This document shows positions 4,229 through 30,628 of a DNA stretch of 30,628 nt, in pieces (the stretch's first letter is position 1; each line of letters opens with the position of its first letter). The DNA lies in the IMG/VR virus record IMGVR_UViG_3300032236_000115, positions 1-30,628 of that record, one strand, 5' to 3'. The DNA is from a virus. The position numbers were made by a program, and so were the translations under genes. The notes beneath the pieces were generated by a model. That model did no database searches. It saw only the letters and a program-made list of their open reading frames with translations, and was not told the origin of the DNA.

Positions 4229-5476
4229 ATGAGCAATAATCTGCTTACTATTTCCATGATCACCAACGAAGCGTTGATGGTTTTGGAAAACGAGTTGACA
4301 TTTTCGAGCGAAGTCGATCGTAACTATGATGATCAATTCGCTGTTACTGGTGCGAAAATTGGCGCGACCTTGAATGTTCGCCGCCCTGGTCGTTTCATTG
4401 GTACATCTGGCCCTGCTTTGAACGTTGAAGACTTCAACGAGACGAGCGTTCCTGTTACCTTGTCGACCCAGTTCCACGTTGATACCCAGTTCACCACTCA
4501 GGACTTGGCATTGTCGTTGGATCAGTTCTCGGATCGCGTTCTTAAGCCCGCCGTGGCTGCTGTAGCTAACAAGATCGACTTTGACGGTCTGACTATGGCT
4601 AAGAACAACACCGCGAATATCGTCGGTACTGCTGGTACTCCTCCTACGTCTTTGCTCACCTACCTCACGGCTGGTGCGTATCTGGACGCTGAAGGCGCAC
4701 CACGCGATGGTCGCCGTTCGTGCATTGTTGAGCCTTTCACCGGCGCAACTATTGTCGATTCGCTGAAAGGTCTGTTTGTGCCTAACGCAACGATTGCCAA
4801 GCAATACGAGCGCGGCCTGATGGGTAAAGACAGCGCAGGCATGACCTGGAAAATGGATCAAAACGTTGTTAATCAAACGTTCGGTTCGTACTCCACCGCT
4901 ACTTTGGCTTGCGATACTACGACCGGCACTGGTTTCCTGACCAGCGGCTGGGCGCAGACTTCCACCATTGCGCTGACCGCTACCACCGCTACCGCTGGCC
5001 TCCAAGTTGGCGACGTGATCCAAATTGCAAACGTTTATGCGGTCAACCCGCAGAACCGTTCCGCATATGGTTCGGGCAAACTGCGTAACTTTGTGGTGAC
5101 CGCTGCCGCTACTGTTGCGACCTCTGGAACTACCTCGGTTACTGTCAGCCCCGCTGTCATCTCCGCTGGTCAATTCCAAAACGTCAGCATCACTAGCACC
5201 AGTTCCACCGCTGTTGTTACTCCGTTTAACAAGACCGGCGTTGTTTCTCCGCAAAACATTGTCATGCACAAAAATGCGTTTTGCTTGGCAACGGCTGACC
5301 TCGAGCTGCCTGACGGAGTCCATTTTGCGGGTCGTGCATCTGACCGTGAACTGGGTCTGTCGTTGCGTGTTGTGCGTCAATACACTATCAACAACGATTC
5401 GATTCCGACTCGCGTTGATGTTCTCTACGGTTGGGCGCCTCTGTATCCAGAGTTGGCCTGCCGTGTTGCAGCTTAA
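4229..5476 (+). CDS. Major capsid (coat) protein, P22 gp5-like
   Basis: A 415-residue coat subunit of the HK97 fold, P22 branch (P22 gp5 is 430). The start MSNNLLTISMITNEAL and the next segment with LENELTFSSEVDRNYDDQF match the P22 coat family, and the motif TLNVRRPGRF is typical. Residues about 215-340 are a Thr, Ala and Val-rich beta region (LQVGDVIQIANVYAVN) at the position of the P22 inserted I-domain. The C-terminus ends in LYGWAPLYPELACRVAA, characteristic of the group. An AAGG at 4217-4220 precedes the ATG. Codon use is noticeably biased, as expected for the most highly expressed gene, which also creates a long meaningless antisense frame. A small structural gene and a terminator follow. 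Confidence 0.96.
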   Translation: MSNNLLTISMITNEALMVLENELTFSSEVDRNYDDQFAVTGAKIGATLNVRRPGRFIGTSGPALNVEDFNETSVPVTLSTQFHVDTQFTTQDLALSLDQFSDRVLKPAVAAVANKIDFDGLTMAKNNTANIVGTAGTPPTSLLTYLTAGAYLDAEGAPRDGRRSCIVEPFTGATIVDSLKGLFVPNATIAKQYERGLMGKDSAGMTWKMDQNVVNQTFGSYSTATLACDTTTGTGFLTSGWAQTSTIALTATTATAGLQVGDVIQIANVYAVNPQNRSAYGSGKLRNFVVTAAATVATSGTTSVTVSPAVISAGQFQNVSITSTSSTAVVTPFNKTGVVSPQNIVMHKNAFCLATADLELPDGVHFAGRASDRELGLSLRVVRQYTINNDSIPTRVDVLYGWAPLYPELACRVAA

Positions 5477-5493: not shown

Positions 5494-5916
5494 ATGGCTA
5501 ATCCAGGCGCAGCATCCACCACTACGAACCATCCTAGTCAGTTGGCAACCAATCAGGCTTTGCGCTTGATTGCCTCTGCACAGGGTGTTAACCTCAACCT
5601 AGTTGCCGACACAATCGCACCAATCTTGGTGTCGGGCCGTGTCAGCGTTCAAAGCATCATTGTGACCAATGCGTCCATCAGCTTGGATACTGCTTATTTG
5701 GCAGTGTATACAGGCCCTGGCGCTACTGGCACGGCAGTTAAATCTGCTTATGCTTTGTCGGGCAACACTACCGCCGCGAAAACAATTGTGACCGCAGCAA
5801 CATCTACCGATGCTGTTACGGGCACTCCTCTGTATATTCGCAACACTACCGTTCAAGGCGCAGCGGCTACCGCCGATGTGTTCATCTACGGTTACGACCT
5901 GACTTTCCTGCCTTAA
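5494..5916 (+). CDS. Small beta-rich structural protein, possible head decoration
   Basis: A 140-residue protein immediately after the coat gene, with a strong AAGGAG site just upstream. It is rich in Thr, Ala, Val and Ser, with repeated short hydrophobic beta-strand patterns (SVQSIIVTNASI, TAYLAVYTG, PLYIRNTTVQG, FIYGYDLTFLP), no membrane segment and no cysteine. This is the profile of a virion surface protein such as a decoration or head-fibre subunit. Its position between coat and terminator predicts high-level co-expression with the coat. I recognise no named family, so the decoration role is inference from context and composition; a head-completion role is also possible. Confidence 0.7.
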   Translation: MANPGAASTTTNHPSQLATNQALRLIASAQGVNLNLVADTIAPILVSGRVSVQSIIVTNASISLDTAYLAVYTGPGATGTAVKSAYALSGNTTAAKTIVTAATSTDAVTGTPLYIRNTTVQGAAATADVFIYGYDLTFLP

Positions 5917-6007: not shown

Positions 6008-6271
6008 ATGTCCAACTATGCGTATGTAACCGCTACTGGTAACATCAAAAATGCGCCAGGCAAGATTAAAGGCATTTTTGTATCTGCCGCCTCTTCCACG
6101 CCAACCATTGCTGTTTACGATTCCCAAAATACGGGAACAGGCGCAACGGTGCTGGCAACATTCACACCAACTGCTGCAACCAATTACAACTTTTTAGATG
6201 GAATTAACGTAGCAAACGGGATTTATGTTGTGATTGGCGGGACTGTAGGCGCAACCGTGTATTACGAGTAA
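6008..6271 (+). CDS. Small beta-rich virion-like protein
   Basis: An 87-residue protein of unknown family between the terminator and the gp4-like tail gene. It has alternating hydrophobic and Thr/Ser residues ([54 protein letters not shown]), consistent with a small all-beta fold such as those found as decoration or fibre-accessory proteins. No cysteines, signal peptide or membrane helix are visible. GAAAGGGATCACC before the ATG gives a good ribosome site. The next gene begins four bases after its stop, so the two are probably co-translated. A structural role is inferred only from position and composition. Confidence 0.65.
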
Positions 6272-7254: not shown

Positions 7255-8733
7255 ATGTCTGATTTTGGCTTTGTTGGCACGTCTTACACAACACCATCTA
7301 TTTATCAGGATGGTCAAGAATGCATCAATTTTTTTGCAGAAATTGACCCAACTAAGCAGCCTGGTGATCGAGGAATTGTTGCGCTTTATCCAACTCCAGG
7401 GCTTACTTTGCAGACTCAACTTGTCTCAGGTCAAGTTCGTGGTTTGCATACAATGTCAGGAGAGCAAATCCTTATTGCTGTGTCTGGACAATACGTATAC
7501 CAAATTAATACCTTGATGGTTGCGACTCAGATAGGAACATTAACAACCAATACAGGTCAAGTTTCAATTTCTGACAATATTGATTCATCCAATGGGTTAA
7601 CTGCTTACATTGTTGATGGGCCAAATCGGTATACATGGGTTGTTGCGACTAACACTTTTACAACTTTGCCAAGCACGGATGGCCCGTGGCAAGGTGCATC
7701 CGTTGTGGATGTAGTGGACAACTACAACATCTATAACGAGCCTGGCACACAAAATTGGGGATGCACAGATTTAGGTTCAAGCCTATCAACAGGTGCGCTT
7801 TATGGCTCCGCTGATGGTTCTTCCGATCTCTTGGTGACGCTTATCGTTGACCGTCGCCAAGTCTATTTGCTTGGGGAAGTGACCACCGAAGTATGGACAG
7901 ATGTGGGAAATGTAATCTCAGGAATTACAACTTTTCCATTTCAGCGCGTGCCAGGAACATCAAGTCAGTCAGGCATTGGCGCAGCGTTTTCTTTAGCACG
8001 ATTTGGTGGTTCATTTGCTTGTGTAGCAAAAGACACAAGAGGCGATGCCACTATTCTTCAAATGAATGGTTATCAATGGCAACGTTTGTCAACTCATGCG
8101 GTTGAACAATCTTTGTTAGGTCAAGTTACGTCAGATGCTGTGGCCTATACCTATCAGATTGAAGGCCATGAAATGTATGTTTGCACTTTTCCTAGCGTTG
8201 GCGATTATGGGCTGACATGGGTTTACGATGGGTCTACAAAATCATGGCACAAATGGCTATCTTGGGATTCTAATCTTGCTGTTTACAAGCGCCATCGTTC
8301 TAATTGTGGCGCATATTTCAATGGAATGTATGTTGTTGGCGACTATGAAAACGGCAAAATTTATAGTGTTGATAATGAAGTTTATACGGAAGATGGGGCA
8401 ACCATTCGTCGTCTGCGCCGTGCAGTTCATATAACAAGTGATCTTGAACGTCAATATTTTGAGTCATTTCAAATTCAATTTCAACCAGGCGTTGGGCTCA
8501 ACACAGGCCAAGGCCAAAATCCACAGGCAATGTTGCGTTGGTCTAATGATGGTGGTAGCACTTACTCAAATGAGCATTGGGTAAGCATTGGCGCAATGGG
8601 ACAATACGCAAACCGTGCTTTATGGCGGAGGCTCGGATGGTCGCGTGATCGAATCTTTGAAGTTGCTATTTCTGACCCTGTTAAAGCGGTAATTATCTCA
8701 GCGGAGTTAAAAGCCAGCAAAGGGGAAAATTGA
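7255..8733 (+). CDS. Tail hub / packaged-DNA stabilisation protein, P22 gp10-like
   Basis: A 492-residue protein of the P22 gp10 type (472 residues in P22), which forms the hub between the gp4-like factor and the distal tail and keeps the packaged DNA from leaking. Recognisable features are the N-terminal CINFFAEIDP and ALYPTPGL segments and repeated beta-strand blocks like those of propeller proteins (LYGSADGSSDLLVTLIVDRR, QVYLLGEVTTEVW). Towards the C-terminus are LRWSNDGGSTYSNE and RRLGWSRDRIFEVAISDPVK. The last motif is shared with P22-type stabilisation proteins and many podovirus hubs. AAAGG precedes the start, and the stop TGA overlaps the ATG of the next gene by one base. Confidence 0.9.
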   Translation: MSDFGFVGTSYTTPSIYQDGQECINFFAEIDPTKQPGDRGIVALYPTPGLTLQTQLVSGQVRGLHTMSGEQILIAVSGQYVYQINTLMVATQIGTLTTNTGQVSISDNIDSSNGLTAYIVDGPNRYTWVVATNTFTTLPSTDGPWQGASVVDVVDNYNIYNEPGTQNWGCTDLGSSLSTGALYGSADGSSDLLVTLIVDRRQVYLLGEVTTEVWTDVGNVISGITTFPFQRVPGTSSQSGIGAAFSLARFGGSFACVAKDTRGDATILQMNGYQWQRLSTHAVEQSLLGQVTSDAVAYTYQIEGHEMYVCTFPSVGDYGLTWVYDGSTKSWHKWLSWDSNLAVYKRHRSNCGAYFNGMYVVGDYENGKIYSVDNEVYTEDGATIRRLRRAVHITSDLERQYFESFQIQFQPGVGLNTGQGQNPQAMLRWSNDGGSTYSNEHWVSIGAMGQYANRALWRRLGWSRDRIFEVAISDPVKAVIISAELKASKGEN

Positions 8734-10661
8734 TGGCGACTACGCCAAACACCAACATCAATATTCCATACAGCCAGTTTTTGGATGCCACTACTGGCAG
8801 GCCAAGCCTAGAATGGTTGATGTGGCTAATGAACCCATCGTTTATTAGTGTAAATATAGGTGGTGGATTGCCAGTTACATCTGGTGGGACAGGACTAACC
8901 ACAATTCCTGCTAATGGTCAACTTTTGATTGGTAATGGCACAGGATACACCCTTAACACTTTAGGATACGGCGTAGGCATCTCAGTTACCAATGGTTCTG
9001 GGACTATCACTGTTGCTAATACTGGTGTTTTGTCAAACATTGCAGGAAGCGGAATTTCTGTATCAAGTTCTACGGGAAATGTCACAGTCAGTAATACAGG
9101 CGTTTTAAGTTGGTCTGGAGGCACTACAGGGCTAACCCCTGCTATAGATACAACGGGGAATGTAACGCTTGGCGGTACGCTTGCAATTGCTAGTGGTGGA
9201 ACAAATGGTTCTGCGACTCCTACGGCCTATGGCGTAGCTTATGGAAATGGGACAGCCTATGCTTTTACCGCTGCGGGCACAACAGGCCAAGTTTTAACAG
9301 CTACAACAGGCAGTGCACCAACTTGGGCTGCGCCTGCTACAAGTGGCACAGTTACAAGCGTTGGCTTGGCAATGCCTACGCAATTTACAGTAACCAATTC
9401 GCCAGTTACAAGTTCTGGGACACTTACGGCTGCTTGGAATAATCAAACGGCAAATTATGTTTTATCTGGGCCGACCACCGGCGCAGCAGCTACGCCGACA
9501 TTCCGTGCTCTTGTTGCTGCTGACATTCCTAGTTTGGCTTATGTGACCAGCGTTAGCTTTACTGGTGGATTAATTTCTGTAGCAACGGCGACCACAACTC
9601 CAGCGTTGACTGTAGCTGGAACAAGCGGCGGCGTAGTGTATTTTTCTAGCGCATCAACCTGGGCATCATCTGCGGCTTTGGCTGCTAATGCTTTGGTAGT
9701 AGGCGGTGGGGCTGGTGTAGCACCTAGCACTATCACTACAGGCACAGGTGTTGTTACGGCGCTCGGAGTTAATACAGGTACTGCTGGCTCATTTGTTGTC
9801 AATGGTGGCGCATTGGGTACACCATCTAGCGGAACTGTAACCAATTTAACTGGAACAGCGTCCATCAACATCAATGGTACTGTTGGAGCAACCACCACCA
9901 ATTCTGGTGCTTTTACTAGCCTTTCTTATAGCACCACACTAACAGGTGGTACAGGTATTGTTAATTTAGGCAGCGGACAATTTTACAAAGACGCATCTGG
10001 CAATGTGGGGCTAGGCGTTACAAGCCCAGCAAGTAGACTTGAAATAGGCTCAAAAACTGTAGGAAATTATGGCGCAAATTTAACAGTAGATGGCACTACT
10101 GCGTCTAATTTCAGAATTGATGATCTTTCCAATGTAGCTACAGGAAGAAGGTATCTTACAAATAACTTTAGCCGTAGTGGGGCATTTACTGCTGATAACG
10201 CCGCTTATGGCGTTACTGCAATTCAATTTGATGATGGTTTTTTGACGTTTCAAACGGCGGCGGCTGGAACTGCAAATCCTACGGAACGGATGCGAATTGA
10301 TGCGTCTGGAAATGTGATTGTTACTAGCACAGGTGGTTTAGGGTATGGCACAGGATCAGGCGGCACAGTCACCCAAGTTACATCACGCACTACTGGCGTA
10401 ACACTCAACAAAACCAACGGCGCTATTACACTTGTATCGGCGGCGGGGCTTGCAACTTTTCAAAGTTTTACGGTGACCAATTCAACTGTAGCGGCTACGG
10501 ATGTTGTTCATGTAACGCAAAAATCGGGCACTGACCTATATCAAATATTTGTTACAGCAACCGCCGCTGGTAGCTTCAGAATAACATTTGCAACAACGGG
10601 CGGCGTAACAATTGAACAACCAGTATTCAATTTTGCCGTTATAAAAGGAGTAACAGCGTGA
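8733..10661 (+). CDS. Tail fibre protein with repetitive beta shaft
   Basis: A 642-residue fibre. A TTG at 8730 is in frame, but the ATG at 8733 follows AGGGGA at 8721-8726 and is the better start. The N-terminus (PYSQFLDATTGRPSLEWLMWLMNP) is a typical virion-anchoring segment. Then comes a long Gly/Thr/Ser/Ala shaft with repeating phrases of the kind GQVLTATTGSAPTWAAP, SGGTG and LGTPSSGTVTNLTG. A GNVGLGVTSPASRLEIG segment and ERMRIDASGNV follow near residues 430-530, common before fibre tips. The C-terminal 100 or so residues are a distinct beta module that is shared with the protein at 28961-29371. The role is receptor binding, inferred from architecture. The stop overlaps the next GTG start. 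Confidence 0.88.
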   Translation: MATTPNTNINIPYSQFLDATTGRPSLEWLMWLMNPSFISVNIGGGLPVTSGGTGLTTIPANGQLLIGNGTGYTLNTLGYGVGISVTNGSGTITVANTGVLSNIAGSGISVSSSTGNVTVSNTGVLSWSGGTTGLTPAIDTTGNVTLGGTLAIASGGTNGSATPTAYGVAYGNGTAYAFTAAGTTGQVLTATTGSAPTWAAPATSGTVTSVGLAMPTQFTVTNSPVTSSGTLTAAWNNQTANYVLSGPTTGAAATPTFRALVAADIPSLAYVTSVSFTGGLISVATATTTPALTVAGTSGGVVYFSSASTWASSAALAANALVVGGGAGVAPSTITTGTGVVTALGVNTGTAGSFVVNGGALGTPSSGTVTNLTGTASININGTVGATTTNSGAFTSLSYSTTLTGGTGIVNLGSGQFYKDASGNVGLGVTSPASRLEIGSKTVGNYGANLTVDGTTASNFRIDDLSNVATGRRYLTNNFSRSGAFTADNAAYGVTAIQFDDGFLTFQTAAAGTANPTERMRIDASGNVIVTSTGGLGYGTGSGGTVTQVTSRTTGVTLNKTNGAITLVSAAGLATFQSFTVTNSTVAATDVVHVTQKSGTDLYQIFVTATAAGSFRITFATTGGVTIEQPVFNFAVIKGVTA

Positions 10662-24892: not shown

Positions 24893-25423
24893 ATGCGAAA
24901 GCCTATTGGCAAAAAGCTGCGTTTTGATGTTTTCAAACGCGATGATTTTACTTGTGCATATTGCGGTTCTACACCGCCATCTGTGGTTCTTCAGGTTGAC
25001 CATATTTTTCCCGTTTCTCAAGGCGGGACGAACAGCATTGACAATTTAATTACCAGTTGCCAGCCGTGCAATATTGGAAAAGGCGCTACTGATTTATCGG
25101 CTATTCCACAAAGTCTAAAAGAAAAATCTGAATTGGTGGCAGAGCAAGAGGCTCAGATAAAAGGCTATTACCAAATCATGCAAGAAAAAGAGAGCAGGCT
25201 AGAGGCAGAAATGTGGGTCATTGCTGACATCATTGAAACCAATAGTTCACAGGATGGCATGAAGCGTCAATGGCTTTCAAGCATTAAAAGATTTGTGTCT
25301 CAACTCGGCTTTTACGAAACAAAAAATGCCGCTGAAATTGCTAGAGACAAGTTTTCATGGGGTGGAAAAAAGACTTTTTTATATTTTTGTGGCATTTGTC
25401 ACAACAAGTTGAGGGCTGAATAA
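24893..25423 (+). CDS. HNH endonuclease
   Basis: A 176-residue protein. The N-terminal 65 residues are a textbook HNH domain: LRFDVFKRDDFTCAYCGSTP (C21, C24), VDHIFPVSQGG (D36, H37), NLITSCQPCN (N51, C56, C59, N60). The two CxxC pairs hold a structural zinc and the His plus Asn residues form the active site. The C-terminal half is a Glu/Gln-rich coiled coil (KSELVAEQEAQIKGYYQIMQ) then a basic domain ending in CGICHNK, which may bind DNA. Here it sits ahead of replication genes rather than next to terminase, so a role in host DNA degradation or as a selfish homing-type nuclease is possible. GGGGTGAAC precedes the start; its stop overlaps the next ATG. Confidence 0.9.
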   Translation: MRKPIGKKLRFDVFKRDDFTCAYCGSTPPSVVLQVDHIFPVSQGGTNSIDNLITSCQPCNIGKGATDLSAIPQSLKEKSELVAEQEAQIKGYYQIMQEKESRLEAEMWVIADIIETNSSQDGMKRQWLSSIKRFVSQLGFYETKNAAEIARDKFSWGGKKTFLYFCGICHNKLRAE

Positions 25424-26130
25424 TGGCACGCATTCGCACTATTAAGCCCGAATTTTGGCGCGATGAATCATTGGCTTCTGTATCAAGTGAAGCCTGTTTG
25501 CTGGCAATTGGATTACTCAATCATTGTGATGATGAAGGCTATTTCAACGCTAATCCAAAATTGGTGGAGTCAGACATTTTTCCTTTGCGTGAATTGTCCA
25601 GTACGACTACTGTATTGCTACAGGAGTTGTCCTCTATTGGTTATATTTCCATGTTTCAAGGCTCAGATGGCAAGGTATATGGAGCAGTGACAAATTTTGA
25701 GAAGCATCAAGTCATAAACAAGAAAAGTCTTAGCAAAATCAAGCACTTATGTGAATTACCATACCATTCCGGTAGTGTTCCTGTAGTGCTACCTATAGGA
25801 AAGGAAAGGAAAGGAAGTGGAAATGGAAAGGAAAATAATACAGTCGCCCCGCCGTTCGGCGTGACGGATTCTGTTTGGCAGGATTGGTTAAAGCTAAGAA
25901 AAGCAAAAAAGGCGGCAGTCACCCAAACCGCAATAGACGGGATACAGCGCGAAGCGGACAAAGCAGGTGTAAGCCTACAGGTCGCCTTAGAAACTTGCTG
26001 TGAGCGCGGCTGGACGGGTTTTAAGGCCGAATGGATGCAATCCAAGCCAACATTGCAAGACAAGAACCTTGGCGCGGCTCGGGCCATCTTTGGTGACGAA
26101 AGGAACTTCAATGTCCTCAAAATTACCTGA
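25423..26130 (+). CDS. Replisome-organiser-like replication initiation protein
   Basis: A 235-residue protein starting MARIRTIKPEFWRDESLASV, a signature of phage replication proteins with an N-terminal winged helix (LAIGLLNHCDDEGYFNANPK, LVESDIFPLRELSS). The middle contains a short Gly/Lys/Asn linker (KERKGSGNGKENN). The C-terminal domain begins WQDWLKLRKAKKAAVTQTAI and continues with DGIQREADKAGVSLQVALET and GWTGFKAEWM, a widely distributed module in phage replication and primosome-like proteins. Its partner is probably the next gene, which could load the helicase. The protein presumably binds the phage origin, which is not identifiable here; origins of this type often lie within the gene itself. 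Confidence 0.82.
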   Translation: MARIRTIKPEFWRDESLASVSSEACLLAIGLLNHCDDEGYFNANPKLVESDIFPLRELSSTTTVLLQELSSIGYISMFQGSDGKVYGAVTNFEKHQVINKKSLSKIKHLCELPYHSGSVPVVLPIGKERKGSGNGKENNTVAPPFGVTDSVWQDWLKLRKAKKAAVTQTAIDGIQREADKAGVSLQVALETCCERGWTGFKAEWMQSKPTLQDKNLGAARAIFGDERNFNVLKIT

Positions 26131-26479
26131 TGGCTGGATTCAACGCATATTTGCGACCATGCAAGGCAACTACGGCACTCGGTTTATGAATCAATGGAAA
26201 ACAGGCCAGGTGCTGCCAGATGGGTCAGACGCTGGCGTAGTAAACGCAATGAATCATTGGTCGGAAAAGATGGCGGGAACAAGCGCCGCGACCATCAAAC
26301 GGGCTTTGGAAAACTTGCCCGAGGAACCGCCAAGCCTGCCGCAGTTTATGGCTCTGCTGCGCCGTAGCTATGTTGAGCCGCCTGTTTTGCGATTGGGCAA
26401 TGAACTGACTGCGGAACAGATGGCGGCAAACAAGCGCCGCATTGCCGAATTAATTGCGAAGGTAAAAAGCAATGTTTGA
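26111..26479 (+). CDS. Possible helicase loader, lambda P-like
   Basis: A 122-residue protein. Frames extend to 26000 inside the previous gene, but the ATG at 26111 has AAAGGAAC upstream. The pattern WIQRIFATMQGNYGTRFMNQ, then VVNAMNHWSEKMAGTSAATI and LPEEPPSLPQFMALLRRSY resembles the C-terminal architecture of replication protein P-type loaders (a Trp-rich helix, then PPSLPQF before a C-terminal helix). Lambda P recruits host DnaB. Position directly after a replisome organiser supports this. It is smaller than P (about 233 residues), so it is a core-only or distant relative. Confidence 0.6.
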   Translation: MSSKLPDGWIQRIFATMQGNYGTRFMNQWKTGQVLPDGSDAGVVNAMNHWSEKMAGTSAATIKRALENLPEEPPSLPQFMALLRRSYVEPPVLRLGNELTAEQMAANKRRIAELIAKVKSNV

Positions 26480-26651
26480 CTACGAAAAAATCCGCAGGAC
26501 AACTTTTGCGGAATATGTGCGTCTATGCCGCTTGCCTGCTTGGAAAGAATGGGCATGGGCTGAAGTCAAGCGCATGGATGAAGAAGAATTGTTTAAGGGC
26601 ATAAAAGCCCATGTTTTGGAGCAAATGAATGCGACACGCAGCAAGGGTTGA
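26472..26651 (+). CDS. Small basic protein after the loader
   Basis: A 59-residue protein (MFDYEKIRRTTFAEYVRLCR to MNATRSKG) with AAGGT eight bases before the ATG and an eight-base overlap with the loader gene. It is Arg/Lys/Trp-rich, with the segment PAWKEWAWAEVKRMDEEELF forming a probable amphipathic helix. Its 3' end overlaps the nuclease gene by 23 bases. Family unknown. A nucleic-acid-binding accessory role is compatible with the basic charge but unproven. Confidence 0.68.
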   Translation: MFDYEKIRRTTFAEYVRLCRLPAWKEWAWAEVKRMDEEELFKGIKAHVLEQMNATRSKG

Positions 26652-26922
26652 CGGGAATCAAGCCGAGATAGTTGCCGCACTAAGGGCATCAGGAGCCTCT
26701 GTATTCGTTCTAAAGCTGCCGGTAGACCTGTTGGTAGGCTACGCGGGGAAAACTGCCTTAGTCGAAGTCAAAGACTCGACCACCTCATACGGTAAAAAAG
26801 GGTTAAATGTTAAGCAAAGCGCGTTTTTAATGGGTTGGAATGGTGGGACAGTCGCTTTGATTGACTCGGTAGAAGCCGCGCAAAACTTGATAAGGATGAT
26901 GAGTGATAGTCCACCTGTATAG
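26629..26922 (+). CDS. PD-(D/E)xK nuclease, resolvase-like
   Basis: A 97-residue nuclease-fold protein. N10-E13 (GNQAEIVAALR) begins the first helix; D33 (PVDLLVGYAGKT) and E46-x-K48 (LVEVKD) form the D-x12-E-x-K core on adjacent strands. The end of the fold reads SAFLMGWNGGTVALIDSVEA. The size is minimal for this fold, similar to small VRR-NUC-like or Holliday-junction-resolving nucleases in phage recombination modules. GGAGCAAATGA precedes the ATG. It lies directly before NinB, consistent with recombination and branched DNA processing during packaging-linked replication. Confidence 0.8.
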   Translation: MRHAARVDGNQAEIVAALRASGASVFVLKLPVDLLVGYAGKTALVEVKDSTTSYGKKGLNVKQSAFLMGWNGGTVALIDSVEAAQNLIRMMSDSPPV

Positions 26923-27304
26923 CCCAACTCAAGCCGCAACGGTCATGAAAGACCTATGGCCTACAGTAAAGGAATCGCTTGCGCTTGGTAAAAAGATGCG
27001 CTTGGAAATAAAGCAAAGTAGGCGCAGTACCGAGCAAAACGATATGTTTCATTCCATCATTGCCCAAATTGCTCAAAAAATGGGCGAAGCAGGGTCAACA
27101 TGGACAGCCGACGATTGGAAACGTTTGCTAATAGACCAATGGGCGCATGAAACTAGACGCAAAATTGGGAAAGTCGCCCCAAGCCTAGATGGTGAACGGG
27201 TGGTGCAGCTTGGCCTACAGTCTCACAAATTCACGGTGGAGGACTCAAGCGAATTTATAGAATTTTTAATTGCCTGGGCAACTAATAAAGGAATTGATGT
27301 ATGA
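26903..27304 (+). CDS. ninB: NinB recombination protein
   Basis: A 133-residue protein starting with GTG at 26903 after AAGGA, overlapping the nuclease gene by 20 bases. The segments KMRLEIKQSRRSTEQNDMFH, WTADDWKRLLIDQW and RKIGKVAPSLDGERVVQLG are the fingerprint of NinB (lambda Orf), a single-strand DNA and SSB-binding recombination mediator. The C-terminal helix (DSSEFIEFLIAWATNKGIDV) completes the family length. It should cooperate with the ERF recombinase and the phage SSB-like protein; interaction with SSB is known for the family. The stop overlaps the zinc-ribbon gene as ATGA. Confidence 0.92.
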   Translation: MIVHLYSPTQAATVMKDLWPTVKESLALGKKMRLEIKQSRRSTEQNDMFHSIIAQIAQKMGEAGSTWTADDWKRLLIDQWAHETRRKIGKVAPSLDGERVVQLGLQSHKFTVEDSSEFIEFLIAWATNKGIDV

Positions 27305-27492
27305 AATGCCCTGTATGCGGCGCGTGGACTTTTGTAAAACAAACGATAGTAAAAGATGACAACACAAGAAAAAGACGATATGAATGTGGAAATGAACACC
27401 GATTTTGGACGCTCGAAACAATCCTATGTGAGAAGCAAAAAGCTATTAAAAGCCGCCCGCGCTTTACCATGCCAGCATTGCGGGCAGGATGA
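27301..27492 (+). CDS. Zinc-ribbon protein overlapping the YbcO-like gene
   Basis: A 63-residue protein: MKCPVCGAWTFVKQTIVKDD carries C3 and C6; C29 and H33 (YECGNEHRFW) complete a CCCH-type knuckle. Similar short ribbon proteins beginning CPVCG with an RRYEC-NEHRF block are common in phages, often near recombination genes, and resemble the ribbon of NrdR. The C-terminal 20-odd residues are basic and lie wholly inside the overlap. The first 43 residues contain the domain; the rest could be a by-product of the overlap with the gene at 27356. ATGA overlap with ninB supports its start. Confidence 0.74.
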   Translation: MKCPVCGAWTFVKQTIVKDDNTRKRRYECGNEHRFWTLETILCEKQKAIKSRPRFTMPALRAG

Positions 27493-27724
27493 TGGGACTG
27501 TGGTCGCAGCACATACAAATTGGGGTGGCGGCAAAGGAAGGGGCATCAAAGCCTCAGACGATTTGATAGCCAGCCTGTGTTTTCGGTGTCACTTTGACCT
27601 AGATCAAGGCGCAAGTTTGACCAAGAACGAACGCCAGGCTTTATGGCAAGCCGCCCATGAACGGACGGTCAAAAAATTATGCGACAATGGATTGTGGCCC
27701 ATTGACGTACCTATCCCTTTGTGA
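27356..27724 (+). CDS. YbcO-like (DUF1364-type) nuclease, HNH fold
   Basis: Up to 122 residues; possible starts are the ATGs at 27356, 27380 and 27392, none with a strong ribosome site. The core LPCQHCGQDDGTVVAAHTNW (C39, C42, H53 from the first ATG) and ASLCFRCHFDLDQG (C75, C78, H79) matches DUF1364 proteins like YbcO, an HNH-type, zinc-dependent nuclease often following NinB in lambdoid phages. The segment GGGKGRGIKASDDL is family-typical. The C-terminal part is helical and basic. It overlaps the zinc-ribbon gene in a different frame by 101-137 bases depending on the start. Function: probable recombination/repair nuclease. Confidence 0.85.
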   Translation: MTTQEKDDMNVEMNTDFGRSKQSYVRSKKLLKAARALPCQHCGQDDGTVVAAHTNWGGGKGRGIKASDDLIASLCFRCHFDLDQGASLTKNERQALWQAAHERTVKKLCDNGLWPIDVPIPL

Positions 27725-27736
27725 GATATTAAGCAA

Positions 27737-28096
27737 ATGAACGACGAAATGGCAGAATTTGCAAGTGCTTTGCTGCATAGCAGCACGGTTACCCATTTCA
27801 TGCACTGGTCGACGAACTCTTATGCCAAGCACAAAGCCTTGGCAAAGTATTACGAAGGCATCATCGACCTTACCGACCAGCTAGTCGAAGCGTACATGGG
27901 CCGGTACGAACAGCTTAAAAAATTCCCTTCTGAGTTTCACAACGCCGACGATCCGTTGAAATACTTAGAGGGCATCAAATCCTTTGTGGCAGAGGCAAGA
28001 ACGCAGCTTCCGCAGGATACAGCCCTGCAAAATCTCATTGATGAAATTGCAGACTTAATCAACTCCACAGTTTATAAACTCAAGTATTTGGAGTAA
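27737..28096 (+). CDS. Helical protein of the DUF5856 type
   Basis: A 119-residue, all-helical protein. The motif LLHSSTVTHFMHWSTNSYAK then HKALAKYYEGIIDLTDQLVE and YMGRYEQLKKFP recalls a phage family (DUF5856-like) with a ferritin/Dps-like spacing of His and Glu (H14, H20, H32, E40, E51). Metal binding is possible but the residues are not in a canonical diiron pattern. It begins 12 bases after the YbcO-like gene, with a weak ribosome site, and opens the pre-terminase accessory block. The family name is from memory and its function is not established. Confidence 0.68.
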   Translation: MNDEMAEFASALLHSSTVTHFMHWSTNSYAKHKALAKYYEGIIDLTDQLVEAYMGRYEQLKKFPSEFHNADDPLKYLEGIKSFVAEARTQLPQDTALQNLIDEIADLINSTVYKLKYLE

Positions 28097-28098
28097 TC

Positions 28099-28398
28099 AT
28101 GAAAAGCAAACAAGTCCACCACCATATGCAAAAAGCCATGCACCACATGGCCCAAGCCCACAAACACCATTCTTCGCATGAAATCATGACCGGCGAACCC
28201 AAAGGTTACGGCACTCATGCTGAAATGCGTGGAGATGCCACTAAAGCCGATTCGTCTGGCGAACGTAAAGAAAAGCTGATCCATCACATGGTCGCTGACG
28301 CTAAAGAAAACAAGCCCATGTCCAAACATGAAGACTTGTCTGGTGGTCGCCACGACGATGGTCATTGCTACGTCCACGAGCGTAGCAGCTACCAATAA
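28099..28398 (+). CDS. Histidine- and methionine-rich protein
   Basis: A 99-residue hydrophilic protein with 16 histidines, concentrated in the first 30 residues (HHHMQKAMHHMAQAHKHHSS) and again near the C-terminus (HDDGHCYVHE), plus eight methionines. It begins two bases after the helical gene's stop. The composition suggests divalent metal binding or a poly-cationic, pH-sensitive tail; no signal peptide or fold is recognised. A few phages encode His-rich small virion proteins, but no equivalence is claimed. The middle (KGYGTHAEMRGDATKADSSG) is polar and probably disordered. Confidence 0.75.
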   Translation: MKSKQVHHHMQKAMHHMAQAHKHHSSHEIMTGEPKGYGTHAEMRGDATKADSSGERKEKLIHHMVADAKENKPMSKHEDLSGGRHDDGHCYVHERSSYQ

Positions 28399-28402
28399 AA
28401 GC

Positions 28403-28435
28403 GATGCCCTACTGGTCATAACCCAGTAAGGCATC
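28403..28435. promoter_or_regulatory. Long inverted repeat between His-rich and four-Cys genes
   Basis: GATGCC-C-TACTGG (28403-28415) faces CCAGTA-A-GGCATC (28423-28435) across a seven-base loop (TCATAAC): a 13-bp stem with a single internal mismatch. No T-run follows, so it is not a canonical terminator. It may be an RNA processing, stability or attenuation element, or a protein-binding site. It occupies half of the 65-base gap here. Confidence 0.7.
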
Positions 28436-28463
28436 TAGCCATCTAATTAAGTAAGGTAACTAA

Positions 28464-28712
28464 ATGGTTGCATCAGATTTTAAATGCGGAAACTGCGAAT
28501 ATTTTGTAGACCGCCAAATTATGGGCGTTTGTCGCCTGTATCCATTAACACAAAATAAGCACGAATCCGATTGGTGTGGTCAGCATCAGGAAAAGCAAGT
28601 AAAGATGGTCAAGTTGCCGGTGTACGACATCATGACCGACCAAACAACGGAAGTAATGGCCCGTCCTAAACGCAAATACACAAGGAAATCAGATGTTTCG
28701 ACCGCTGAATGA
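28464..28712 (+). CDS. Four-cysteine small metal-binding-type protein
   Basis: An 82-residue protein with AAGG seven bases before the ATG. Four cysteines are arranged C8-x2-C11-x11-C23-x14-C38 (FKCGNCEYF, GVCRLYP, SDWCGQH), a pattern of small zinc- or iron-binding proteins widespread in phages, where GxCRxYP and DWCG are conserved. The C-terminal half is basic (ARPKRKYTRKSDVS), compatible with nucleic-acid contact. Its end overlaps the GroES-like gene by 20 bases. Function is unknown. Confidence 0.8.
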   Translation: MVASDFKCGNCEYFVDRQIMGVCRLYPLTQNKHESDWCGQHQEKQVKMVKLPVYDIMTDQTTEVMARPKRKYTRKSDVSTAE

Positions 28713-28950
28713 CCGTGTTGTAGTGCGTCCCAAGGTGCGCCAATTATCGGATATTATTATTGTGAACAACAAAGAACCCTTTAACGAGGGGACGGTTGTT
28801 GCGATTGGGCCAAATGTGTTTGAGACCCAAGTAGGCGATTTCATTAAATACGGCAATGGGGACTACCTTAACTGGCCCACCCAACGCCTGGACGGTCAGG
28901 ATTATCAGATAATCCAAGAGGCCGATATTTGTGCGGTAGTAGATTTTTAA
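28693..28950 (+). CDS. GroES-like co-chaperonin (Cpn10 family)
   Basis: An 85-residue protein with AAGGAAATCAG before the ATG. It aligns along its length with GroES (97 residues): FRPLNDRVVVRP at the start, NEGTVVAIGPN, VGDFIKYGNGDY and QEADICAVVDF at the end. The mobile loop is shorter but keeps a hydrophobic tripeptide (IIIV, residues 21-24) at the position of GroES IVL, which binds GroEL. The roof-loop region (GDYLNWPTQRLDGQDY) is altered. P22-type coat protein needs GroEL/ES help to fold, so a phage version may replace or tune the host cap, as T4 gp31 does for T4. The chaperone role is inferred from homology. Confidence 0.9.
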   Translation: MFRPLNDRVVVRPKVRQLSDIIIVNNKEPFNEGTVVAIGPNVFETQVGDFIKYGNGDYLNWPTQRLDGQDYQIIQEADICAVVDF

Positions 28951-28960
28951 GGAACTTATC

Positions 28961-29371
28961 ATGAGCAATTCAGTCGCAATCGGTGTCGCATATAGCGACC
29001 CAGAATTCACAACTTGCTATGCAAGCGCAGAAATTGGGTATTCCACAGCCGCCCAAGGCACGGTAACGCAGCTAACCGATAAAAGCACTGGCGTGACTTT
29101 GAACAAATCGGCTGGTCGCATCACCATGAACGCCGCTGCATTGGCGGGTGGTGCAGTGGTGTCTTTTATTTTGACCAATAGCTTGATTTCCACCAATGAC
29201 ACTATCATTGTGTGCGTTTCTAGCAATACTACTGGTAGCGCTGCTGGTGCTTACACCACTTACATTTCGTATTTGTCTGCTGGTACTGCTTTGATTTCAT
29301 TGCGTAATTTAAGTGGAACTTCATATTCTGAAGCGGTAATCATCAACTTTGCAATCATCCACGGTCAATAA
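28961..29371 (+). CDS. Small beta protein sharing the tail-fibre C-terminal module
   Basis: A 136-residue protein preceded by AAGGAAC. From residue 26 (GYSTAAQGTVTQLTDKSTG then VTLNKSAGRIT) to the end (EAVIINFAIIHGQ) it parallels the C-terminal 100 or so residues of the fibre at 8733-10661 (GYGTGSGGTVTQVT, TGVTLNKTNGAIT, NFAVIKG). Shared spacing includes ILTNSLISTNDTIIV versus TVTNSTVAATDVVHV. The N-terminus (MSNSVAIGVAYSDPEF) is a short lead, not a fibre shaft. It is likely a virion beta-sandwich, such as a fibre tip, decoration or head-fibre subunit, and lies among late pre-terminase genes. Confidence 0.78.
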   Translation: MSNSVAIGVAYSDPEFTTCYASAEIGYSTAAQGTVTQLTDKSTGVTLNKSAGRITMNAAALAGGAVVSFILTNSLISTNDTIIVCVSSNTTGSAAGAYTTYISYLSAGTALISLRNLSGTSYSEAVIINFAIIHGQ

Positions 29372-29381
29372 GGAGCAAGCC

Positions 29382-29528
29382 ATGCCTTTGATTAAATCCA
29401 AAACTGAAAAAGCGATGAAAAAAAACATCGTTAAGGAAATCGAGGCTGGCAAGCCCCAAAAGCAAGCCGTGGCGATTGGTTACTCGGTGAAGCGTGAAGC
29501 TGAGAAAAAAGCCAAAGCGAAAAAGTGA
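29382..29528 (+). CDS. Small Lys-rich protein
   Basis: A 48-residue, very basic protein: MPLIKSKTEKAMKKNIVKEI then AVAIGYSVKREAEKKAKAKK. The motif GKPQKQAVAIGYSVKREA is a widespread tiny phage protein type commonly found upstream of terminases or in the virion, of unknown role. GGAGC is correctly spaced before the ATG. Its stop overlaps the following GTG as GTGA. DNA binding is likely from charge alone. Confidence 0.8.
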   Translation: MPLIKSKTEKAMKKNIVKEIEAGKPQKQAVAIGYSVKREAEKKAKAKK

Positions 29529-29794
29529 AGCACGATAAGCCAATACCGCACAAAACCGTGGGGAAGGGTAAAACCTACAACCCCACGGATAAAGGCGCTG
29601 GAATGACCGCCAAAGGCCGTGCCGAATACAACGCAAAGAACAATGCAAACCTAAAGCCGCCTGCGCCGAATCCTAAGACAAAGGCAGACGAAGGACGCAA
29701 GGCAAGTTTTTGCGCCAGAATGGAAGGCGTAGTAAAGAACGCCAAAGGCCCAGCGGAACGAGCAAAGGCATCACTCAAGAATTGGAAGTGCTAA
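29525..29794 (+). CDS. Small basic phage protein (DUF6321-like)
   Basis: An 89-residue protein that starts with GTG (overlap GTGA with the previous stop). The core TYNPTDKGAGMTAKGRAEYN then KASFCARMEGVVKNAKGPAE and ASLKNWKC matches a family I know as DUF6321-like, with K-G-LT-KGR and SFCARM-G signatures, common in podoviruses and found as small internal virion or capsid-associated proteins in some. It is Lys/Ala/Asn-rich and soluble. The following ATG is directly adjacent to its stop. Family assignment is from memory. Confidence 0.8.
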   Translation: MKHDKPIPHKTVGKGKTYNPTDKGAGMTAKGRAEYNAKNNANLKPPAPNPKTKADEGRKASFCARMEGVVKNAKGPAERAKASLKNWKC

Positions 29795-29962
29795 ATGGCT
29801 ACTAAACCTGGTCTATATGCCAATATCCACGCTAAGCAAGAGCGCATCAAGCAGGAAAAAGCTGAAGACGAAAAGGTAGAGCGTATGCGTAAGCCTGGCT
29901 CCAAAGGTGCGCCTACGGCTGCGGCATTCAAAGAGTCAGCTAAGACTGCAAAGAAGAAATGA
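29795..29962 (+). CDS. Small basic protein (MATKPGLYANIHAK type)
   Basis: A 55-residue protein reading MATKPGLYANIHAKQERIKQ, then EDEKVERMRKPGSKGAPTAA and a Lys-rich end. This is one of the most frequent small phage proteins, usually with GLYANIHAK and RKPG-KGAPT, of unknown function, and typically sits directly beside terminase or in the virion. It starts one base after the previous stop codon and overlaps the small terminase start by ATGA. Good conservation of motif makes the call secure; the role is unknown. Confidence 0.85.
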   Translation: MATKPGLYANIHAKQERIKQEKAEDEKVERMRKPGSKGAPTAAAFKESAKTAKKK

Positions 29963-30384
29963 CCGAAGTCAAACGTCCAGTAGGCCGCCCTAGCCTATAT
30001 GACCCTGCCTATATTGACCAAGTAATAGAACTTGGCAAGATTGGTAAGTCTACTGAGGCGATAGGTGCTATTTTGGGCGTTGGCACGGCTACTTTGTACC
30101 GTTGGCGTGATGAATTTCAAGAATTTCGAGAAGCCTTGGAGTTAGCAAAGGAATACGAACTCCAATGGTGGGAAGATATAGCCCAAGCCCACATGATTGA
30201 GAACAAAGAATCGGACAAGATTAACGCCTCAATCTGGTCACGCTCGATGGCGGCACGGTTTCCTAAGAAATATCGGGAAAGCGTCAAACAAGAAATCACA
30301 GGCGCAGATGGCGCACCACTCATAAGCGGAATCCAAGTCACATTCGTCAAGCCCAATGAGTTATGTGCAGACCGCAATAGCTAA
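29959..30384 (+). CDS. terS: Terminase small subunit
   Basis: A 141-residue protein directly before terL. The N-terminal MTEVKRPVGRPSLYDPAYID leads into an HTH with IGKSTEAIGAILGVGTATLY and RWRDEFQEF, the DNA-recognition element that binds pac in this subunit. A helical middle with a Trp-rich segment (YELQWWEDIAQAHMIENKES) probably forms the oligomeric ring, and the C-terminal beta region (GAPLISGIQVTFVKPNE) is typical for contacts with TerL. The gene overlaps terL by 29 bases. In Sf6- and P22-like phages the pac site lies inside this gene; that is an inference here. Confidence 0.92.
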   Translation: MTEVKRPVGRPSLYDPAYIDQVIELGKIGKSTEAIGAILGVGTATLYRWRDEFQEFREALELAKEYELQWWEDIAQAHMIENKESDKINASIWSRSMAARFPKKYRESVKQEITGADGAPLISGIQVTFVKPNELCADRNS

Positions 30385-30628
30385 TGCGGAGTTTCCCGCA
30401 AAGCTAGAAGGCTTGTTCAAAAAGAGCCGGTACAAGGTACTTTACGGCGGCAGGGGTGGGGCTAAGTCTTGGGGAATAGCCAGAGCATTGCTGATTCTTG
30501 GGGCAAAAAGCCCAATGCGTATCCTTTGCGCTCGGGAATTCATGACCTCGATGCGGGATTCCGTCCACAAGTTGCTGTGCGACCAAATCGAATCCCTTGG
30601 CTTGCTAGGCTTCTATGAGATTACCCAG
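30356..30628 (+). CDS. terL: Terminase large subunit, 5' part (continues at position 1)
   Basis: The ATG at 30356 (MSYVQTAIANAEFPAKLEGL) begins the large terminase. The Walker A (P-loop) segment GGRGGAKS occupies residues 31-38, followed by the conserved SWGIARALL and MRILCAREF. These match Sf6-type TerL closely. The frame reaches the window end without a stop and joins the frame at position 1 exactly, because positions 30506 and 1 are the same codon. The start overlaps the small terminase by 29 bases and has no strong Shine-Dalgarno, typical of translationally coupled terminase pairs. Confidence 0.96.
   Translation, partial: MSYVQTAIANAEFPAKLEGLFKKSRYKVLYGGRGGAKSWGIARALLILGAKSPMRILCAREFMTSMRDSVHKLLCDQIESLGLLGFYEITQ
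30506..30628. repeat. Right copy of 123-bp terminal direct repeat
   Basis: Identical to 1-123, in the same reading frame of terL. One copy should be removed to obtain the circular unit of 30,505 bp. The base before this copy is an extra A within an A-run, so the repeat could have extended further left if the contig had started earlier. Confidence 0.95.

Follow-up and report, generated by a model that had tools for sequence, protein, structure and literature searches.

The virus record IMGVR_UViG_3300032236_000115 (30,628 nucleotides, hereafter the window, i.e., the whole stretch of DNA that was analysed) encodes, close to its right end, a protein of 136 amino acids whose C-terminal part resembles the tip of the tail fibre encoded by the same genome. 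The question raised by this locus is what a domain of the fibre-tip type does as a small, free-standing protein. The following features of the window were distinguished:

1-123 and 30506-30628 (no strand): left and right copies of a terminal direct repeat of 123 bp (exact match)
4229-5476, plus strand: P22-type major coat protein, used as the lineage marker (PF11651, E 6e-33; phmmer against the P22 gene 5 protein, E 1.4e-11)
5494-5916, plus strand: untagged ORF of 140 aa located 3' of the coat gene
8730-10661, plus strand: tail fibre gene, whose product ends in the homologous module
10341-10658, plus strand: fibre-tip module, about residues 538-643 of the fibre (BLASTP, hhalign; AlphaFold2 pLDDT 87.3)
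28693-28950, plus strand: phage GroES/Cpn10, 85 aa (Pfam Cpn10, E 5.1e-9; phrog_3188, E 3.2e-10)
28949-28953, plus strand: Shine-Dalgarno-like AAGGA, 7 nt 5' of the ATG of ORF 28961-29371
28961-29371, plus strand: candidate tagged adhesin gene, 136 aa, with its ATG at 28961 and its stop codon ending at 29371 (phrog_18251)
28961-29008, plus strand: N-terminal tag, residues 1-16, MSNSVAIGVAYSDPEF (tag HMM surveys, composition, low pLDDT)
29036-29365, plus strand: C-terminal beta-sandwich payload, residues about 26-135 (BLASTP/hhalign to the fibre tip, AlphaFold2, VIA-align)
29382-29528, plus strand: small Lys-rich ORF of 48 aa (translation)
29525-29794, plus strand: DUF6321 protein (Pfam PF19846, E 3e-16)
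29795-29962, plus strand: small ORF of 55 aa (translation)
29959-30384, plus strand: terminase small subunit (TerS), at which the packaging/structural block starts (phrog_309, E 4.2e-18)

ORF 28961-29371 starts 10 nt after the end of the GroES gene and belongs to a tightly packed plus-strand cluster, composed of the genes for GroES, the ORF itself, the 48-aa protein, the DUF6321 protein, the 55-aa protein and TerS. The window starts inside TerL and ends past TerS. Its ends carry the exact 123-bp repeat, and in 74 loci of relatives both contig ends were matched, with an overlap of 100-150 bases on one strand in all 74; the map is therefore circular, with a length of 30,505 bp. On this map the TerS cluster continues into the TerL, portal, scaffold and coat genes, and the ORF precedes the fibre gene by about 10 kb, both being on the same strand. 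An earlier reading of the DNA, made from the sequence only, had placed the two modules on opposite sides of the genome and in different transcription units. This placement derives from the linear coordinates and is not confirmed on the circular map, in which the ORF is part of the GroES-TerS-TerL-portal-coat plus-strand cluster and shares its strand with the fibre gene. A promoter scan of the window found 3 sites (5.0 expected), and 12 terminator-like sites were found (5.0 expected), 9 of them on the minus strand; one plus-strand terminator-like site (29130-29162) falls within the ORF.

The domain common to the two proteins is the C-terminal domain of ORF 28961-29371 and of the fibre. In BLASTP, residues 37-135 of the ORF share 36% identity with residues 549-640 of the fibre (E 3e-11). 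The profile phrog_18251 (unknown function), which also matches P-HS2_00050, matches residues 27-135 of the ORF at profile positions 177-281 (E 5.4e-29) and residues 502-641 of the fibre (E 7.8e-21); the profile has 284 positions, and the match lies in its C-terminal part, with the tag outside it. Comparison by hhalign of two family alignments, one of 23 free-standing proteins and the other of 22 modules of the fibre-tip type, with no common row, gave a probability of 99.7 and an E value of 3.9e-26 over 111 columns. Since the BLASTP, phrog_18251 and hhalign results are all significant, the likeness is one of homology, and chance similarity is ruled out by the BLASTP and hhalign values. The relationship noticed in the sequence-only reading is thus borne out by profile alignment, and the domains are homologous; the term "copy" used there is too strong, however, as an identity of 36% makes the ORF a distant relative of the fibre tip.

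For ORF 28961-29371, AlphaFold2 predicted a C-terminal beta-sandwich (mean pLDDT 81.5, block means of 81-94 from residue 31), preceded by residues 1-30 with low pLDDT (block means of 47, 58, and 55); the fibre tip was likewise predicted to form a beta-sandwich (pLDDT 87.3). In VIA-align, which re-ranks Foldseek's top 1000 chains only and commonly gives Z values of up to 8 without a clear match, the top match of the ORF model was the foot of the R1 pyocin fibre (6cxb/6cl5) with middling Z values of 8.0/7.9 (rmsd 2.8, 87/92 aligned), and the same chains came top for the fibre-tip model (Z 6.9/7.0, rmsd 3.6/4.1). Close behind were the Helix agglutinins, LKA1 gp49, SLL-2 and the C-terminus of the Sf6 tailspike. 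The R1-pyocin foot and the C-termini of LKA1 gp49 and the Sf6 tailspike, whose sequence identity in these matches is 10-19%, rank near the top in VIA-align for each model; they belong to larger fibres or tailspikes and are not free-standing proteins. Foldseek against the PDB gave no match below E 0.001 for either model. Its first rank was occupied by CUB domains for the ORF model (E 0.027, with 6cl5 lower at E 0.09) and by the C-terminal domain of the Clostridium perfringens enterotoxin for the fibre-tip model (E 0.025), and CUB, enterotoxin C-terminal and collagen-binding domains reach Z values of 5-6 in VIA-align, within about 2 of the best. Because Foldseek returned no strong match and these other folds score Z 5-6, an adhesin-tip-like fold of the module is considered no more than plausible. 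The two proteins may have a common sandwich: the predicted folds look similar, and both the strand order and the top VIA-align matches agree between the two models, an agreement to be read with the fact that the input alignments of the models share rows.

In the BFVD, 35 viral proteins, mostly uncharacterised phage proteins, matched the ORF model at E <=0.001; they include proteins assigned to giant viruses (Marseillevirus LCMAC102, LCMAC202, Faunusvirus and Sylvanvirus; E 4e-9 to 7e-4). Searches of Pfam and NCBIfam and a PDB sequence search gave no match for the ORF, and the family profile yielded only chance-level matches in the PDB.

The search of IMG/VR with the ORF matched at least 599 stretches, 588 of which encode relatives, and the best 80 of the 588 were kept. 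The relative is free-standing in all of these 80 loci (137-157 codons including the stop, counted from the matched start) and occupies one of two main slots: (i) slot A, the GroES/DUF6321/terminase neighbourhood seen in the window (24/80 best loci), or (ii) slot B, located between the coat gene and the tail genes (56/80). The gene order in the inspected slot-B loci is coat gene, a gene for about 136 aa, the ORF relative, a gene for about 61 aa and a tail accessory gene; gp4-like tail accessory and gp10-like stabilisation genes are found downstream of the tagged gene and one small gene. Judged by their sequences, the phages with slot B are a second P22-like lineage, distinct from that of the window: relative to the window, the coat protein has a median identity of 42% (n=43), the portal protein of 38% (n=13) and the ORF of 83% (n=56), the last figure being raised relative to the coat because the 80 loci were picked as best ORF matches. 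In slot A the median identity of the ORF to that of the window is 86% (n=24). Each of the 32 loci among the best 80 that were examined as whole records holds one close copy of the ORF, and 6 of them contain a second match, 36-46% identical to the window ORF. Megablast of window positions 25000-30628 against phages gave no match.

The most informative signal of the ORF is its conserved N-terminus of about 16 residues, which is absent from the sequence-only reading. The family pattern of this tag, represented in the window by MSNSVAIGVAYSDPEF, is MxN[ST]xAxGVAYxDP; ORF 28961-29371 has a tag score of 43.8 and is the sole tagged ORF within the window. When the N-terminus of a longer variant served as the query, three loci (L268-L270) emerged in which the protein has the same N-terminus and slot as the ORF family and a different C-terminal domain. 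A tag profile was built from the first 16 residues of 37 distinct tags of module-bearing proteins, with L268-L270 left out, and plus-strand ORFs were scored in two surveys of loci chosen by their neighbours, 80 via the window GroES and 80 via a slot-B coat protein. In the coat survey, a tagged ORF is present in 66/80 loci (68 ORFs, scores of at least 21.7; best untagged 7.3, 797 scored), and in 66/66 loci the start of this ORF is 356-1104 bases downstream of the coat gene. In the GroES survey, 41/80 loci carry a tagged ORF (42 ORFs, scores of at least 26.5; best untagged 5.5, 1,180 scored). The presence of the gene is patchy, as in an accessory pattern: it is absent in 14 of the 80 coat loci (5 of these with less than 1.1 kb of flank) and in 39 of the 80 GroES loci (4 of these flagged short), frequencies that are not those of all phages, the queries of both surveys having been taken from ORF-bearing loci. 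Relatives of the window GroES (28693-28950) were found in 471 viral-contig stretches.

The 110 tagged ORFs of the two surveys were grouped into ten payload clusters (blastp, E 1e-3) with 66, 10, 8, 6, 5, 5, 4, 3, 2, and 1 members, respectively, two of which (71 and 78 aa) are alike by eye; a second clustering run, in which similar spacers merged clusters, gave 9. The largest cluster is the beta-sandwich module, for which the module profile confirmed 65/66 members; three of the ten clusters are represented in the GroES survey as well as in the coat survey. At the same locus, then, the tag is constant at the N-terminus and the C-terminus is exchanged, which gives these proteins an apparent modular plan of anchor plus tip. 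The 510 sequences as a whole, with both strands read, contain 31,624 closed ORFs; the tag is present on 360, none of them longer than 217 aa. These loci overlap, and 266 of the tagged proteins are distinct. Six loci (L339, L402, L403, and L493-L495) contain two tagged genes with different payloads.

Database searches with tagged proteins bearing other payloads gave no match below E 0.01 in PHROGs (ten proteins) or below E 0.03 in Pfam (nine proteins); among the PHROGs results, the "head fiber protein" phrog_5711 at E 0.047 was too weak to be accepted. When two of the other payloads were compared with phages by tblastn, the match was confined to the tag region of one. Seven GenBank phages, out of 40 and 43 coat-match records, were examined for the tag. 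Two are tagged, MW202520.1 (module) and MW202483.1 (other payload), and in these records, both from Manatee Spring, the tagged proteins are unannotated or named "hypothetical protein"; no cultured isolate with a tagged gene turned up among the records fetched, and no tag was found in the fetched stretches of DSL-LC05, PBR31, PAE2, MW202674.1 and P26218. In module-bearing loci from prokaryote genomes the tag was found in 0/24. A literature search found no account of the tag MxN[ST]xAxGVAYxDP, which is not proof of absence.

Several small genes of the head region were noticed beside the tagged one. Two small proteins (5494-5916 and 6008-6271) are encoded 3' of the window coat gene, and relatives of 6008-6271 precede the scaffold gene in several slot-B loci, and small genes have thus changed place within the head cluster. 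Locus L266 shows a third slot: immediately upstream of the portal gene, a tagged module ORF is flanked by a 508-aa ORF and a short GroES-like ORF; the 508-aa ORF sits in the TerL position, to which it is assigned by place and reading only. The small gene between the coat gene and the tagged gene (L015:2359-2751 and L034:9549-9956) has its own N-terminal pattern, GGYQxGDGN, and in L388 a short protein with a pattern of this kind bears a payload that by eye resembles tagged cluster 1; a second tag may therefore exist. The GGYQxGDGN-pattern proteins of L268 and L034 match phrog_673 (E 7e-8 and 1e-5, respectively), and a PDB sequence search of the small genes behind the coat gene gave a best E value of 0.11 for one and no match for the other.

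Within the tag, the residue at position -3 (three residues before the G of GVAY) differs between the slots. Among module-bearing proteins, this position is V/I in 46 of 48 distinct slot-A proteins (Q in the other 2) and K/Q/R in 134/134 distinct slot-B proteins; with other payloads, it is V/I in 13/14 in slot A (1 K) and K/Q in 66/69 in slot B (3 I). L266, whose slot is ambiguous, was left out of these counts. With the tag removed, 181 module domains gave a tree with 26 slot changes, at least 7 of which are forced by starred branches; this tree was built from few columns, about half of its forks are open and most are weakly supported, and we rely only on the 7 forced changes. Shuffled slot labels gave a mean of 42.8 changes, and in 0/500 shufflings was the number as low as 26; the slot labels are clustered on the module tree, and payload exchange is therefore limited. 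In a payload-only tree, which included one row (L405) that did not belong, the nearest payload to that of the window is that of L010, a slot-B phage, with 94% identity over 111 columns. The distribution of position -3 by slot, together with the slot changes of the module, indicates that the tags stay with the lineage and that payloads moved; what moves between phage lineages in closely related form is the payload. The match between tag and lineage may reflect adaptation to a docking partner, or else the resident 5' end may simply be retained during recombination.

The module also occurs free-standing without the tag. It is encoded directly 3' of the coat gene in P-HS2, KBS-S-2A and L094 (a single-cell Alphaproteobacteria contig), and in KBS-S-2A, which has a siphovirus-type genome, this position is followed by the head-tail adaptor gene. 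Two small ORFs lie between the coat gene and the untagged module in L182, and one in L104, in which the coat match is a fragment (E 3.3e-4). L191 has the untagged module between TerS and TerL. For L093 and L098, inspection by eye showed no coat gene near it. L094, L182, L104, L191, L093, and L098 were hand-picked among short untagged proteins and were not sampled. In two Bacteroidetes/Chitinophagaceae contigs (L089 and L092) the module ends proteins of about 580 aa whose N-termini are by eye signal-peptide-like; these genes are possibly cellular rather than phage.

On balance, we lean towards the reading that ORF 28961-29371 encodes a small accessory adhesin of the virion surface (a head fibre or decoration protein), in which the tag docks and a swappable payload is displayed. 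The tag of about 16 residues would dock the protein to a partner in the virion, for which the coat shell or a protein close to it is the likeliest candidate, and the C-terminal beta-sandwich, a domain type found at the ends of tail fibres, would face outwards, where it would probably bind a cell-surface glycan or a similar ligand, thus adding attachment beside the tail fibre proper. The tag would be kept with the virion lineage and the payload domain exchanged across the phage group. We infer docking to the capsid from gene position; the protein may also form trimers. The tagged gene lies close behind the coat gene in the second lineage (66/80 loci), and the untagged module lies at or near a coat gene in five cases, whereas in the lineage of the window the tagged gene lies in the GroES/terminase cluster and not beside the coat gene. 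The decoration protein of phage L is reported to belong to the head gene cluster of that phage. The earlier proposal, that the same sandwich serves as fibre tip and as capsid or head-fibre decoration, is supported in part by the common family, the similar predicted folds and the linkage of the free-standing form to coat genes in several lineages, and stays conditional as regards its capsid location. More tentatively, and with a little less than an even chance in our estimation, the pattern MxN[ST]xAxGVAYxDP would be a portable virion-docking tag, i.e., a common socket for adhesins swapped between lineages of P22-like phages, with residues (V/I or K/Q/R at position -3) that match the coat lineage.

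The main rival reading places the protein at the neck or tail, as a short fibre whose tag docks tail accessory or stabilisation proteins or the portal and whose payload acts as a secondary receptor-binding protein. Tail genes come next in slot B, which makes such a partner possible, the gp4-like tail accessory and gp10-like stabilisation genes coming after one small gene; the payload domain is of the fibre-tip type, and conserved N-terminal anchors are described as usual in tail receptor-binding proteins (PMC12692247). We nevertheless judge this location unlikely, as none of the tagged proteins found exceeds 217 aa, the tagged gene lies at most 1.1 kb behind the coat gene in 66/66 loci, and untagged forms follow the coat gene in siphovirus-type genomes, in KBS-S-2A ahead of the head-tail adaptor. 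It is also conceivable that the protein acts in the infected cell instead of in the virion, as an assembly helper or a soluble factor (trimerisation aid, decoy, or released lectin), since the gene adjoins that of GroES, a folding helper, in the window lineage and is flanked in L266 by the 508-aa ORF in the TerL position and the short GroES-like ORF. Such a role seems improbable to us: the tag is retained while payloads without detectable similarity are swapped, which fits an anchor better than a helper with one client, and by eye the N-terminus is unlike a signal peptide.

The sequence-only reading had further suggested that the ORF might be a recombination source for host-range change, that is, a spare fibre tip from which the tail fibre could be altered. 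Both genes encode members of the same domain family, and 6/32 whole-record relatives hold a second, weaker copy; these second copies are, however, only 36-46% identical to the window ORF. The tag is present on 182 of the 301 distinct module domains; 118 of the 119 untagged ones reach the last residue. The closest full-length tagged-untagged pair is 64.6% identical (medians of 41.6 and 42.9), and on a tree of 68 thinned rows the two kinds are nearly separate, the label changing 2 times (shuffled mean of 20). Both changes are forced by supported branches, and tag and module have therefore met or parted more than once. A recent duplication of the ORF from the fibre was rejected on the same identity limit and on the near-separate groups of the tree. 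The divergence between tagged and untagged modules makes it unlikely that the ORF and fibre tips have recently exchanged sequence, and we regard a reservoir function as very improbable.

The adhesin that we favour resembles, in its plan, gp13 of Staphylococcus phage Andhra and gp14 of P68, in which a short-tailed phage combines a small N-terminal anchor with a receptor-binding-like C-terminus (PMC9710869). Andhra gp13 is described as a head fibre of 285 aa, whose N-terminal part binds the coat, whose visible anchor, a beta-prism of 44 residues, leads into a long coiled coil, and whose C-terminal domain is homologous to receptor-binding domains of other phages (PMC9710869). The protein studied here differs in its tag of about 16 residues and its length of 136 aa, and no sequence relation to gp13 is claimed. 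A constant N-terminus with a replaced C-terminus is also known from the T4 fibritin (wac), for which PMC3797505 reports a conserved N-terminal attachment and a highly variable C-terminus replaced by alien sequences in eight major forms. Fibritin differs in its neck location, its long coiled-coil shaft and its N-terminal domain of 50 residues, and most of its swapping is regarded as ancient (PMC3797505). In the phages studied here, both lineages carry payloads that are close relatives. Adhesion roles have also been reviewed (PMC7602432) for capsid decoration proteins, namely Hoc (T4), gp17 (N4), gp8.5 (phi29) and Dec (phage L), some of which are dispensable for infectivity; they have other folds and anchors, and the passages of PMC7602432 consulted describe no constant tag with interchangeable payload among them. 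The present protein differs from these systems in its very short anchor, in its small size and in that near relatives of one payload occur in two lineages.

The variability of their visible domains makes head fibres and decoration adhesins difficult to spot, and the constant tag, with which 266 distinct tagged proteins were found, is a means of finding such adhesins. The lineage-specific residues of the tag make the docking partner directly testable. If the tag docks the shell, capsid-borne binding domains would be exchanged in these phages much as the tail tips of other phages are, and the tag would be a compact display anchor; if the tag is truly portable, these phages would possess a natural form of phage display whose anchor is unusually short.
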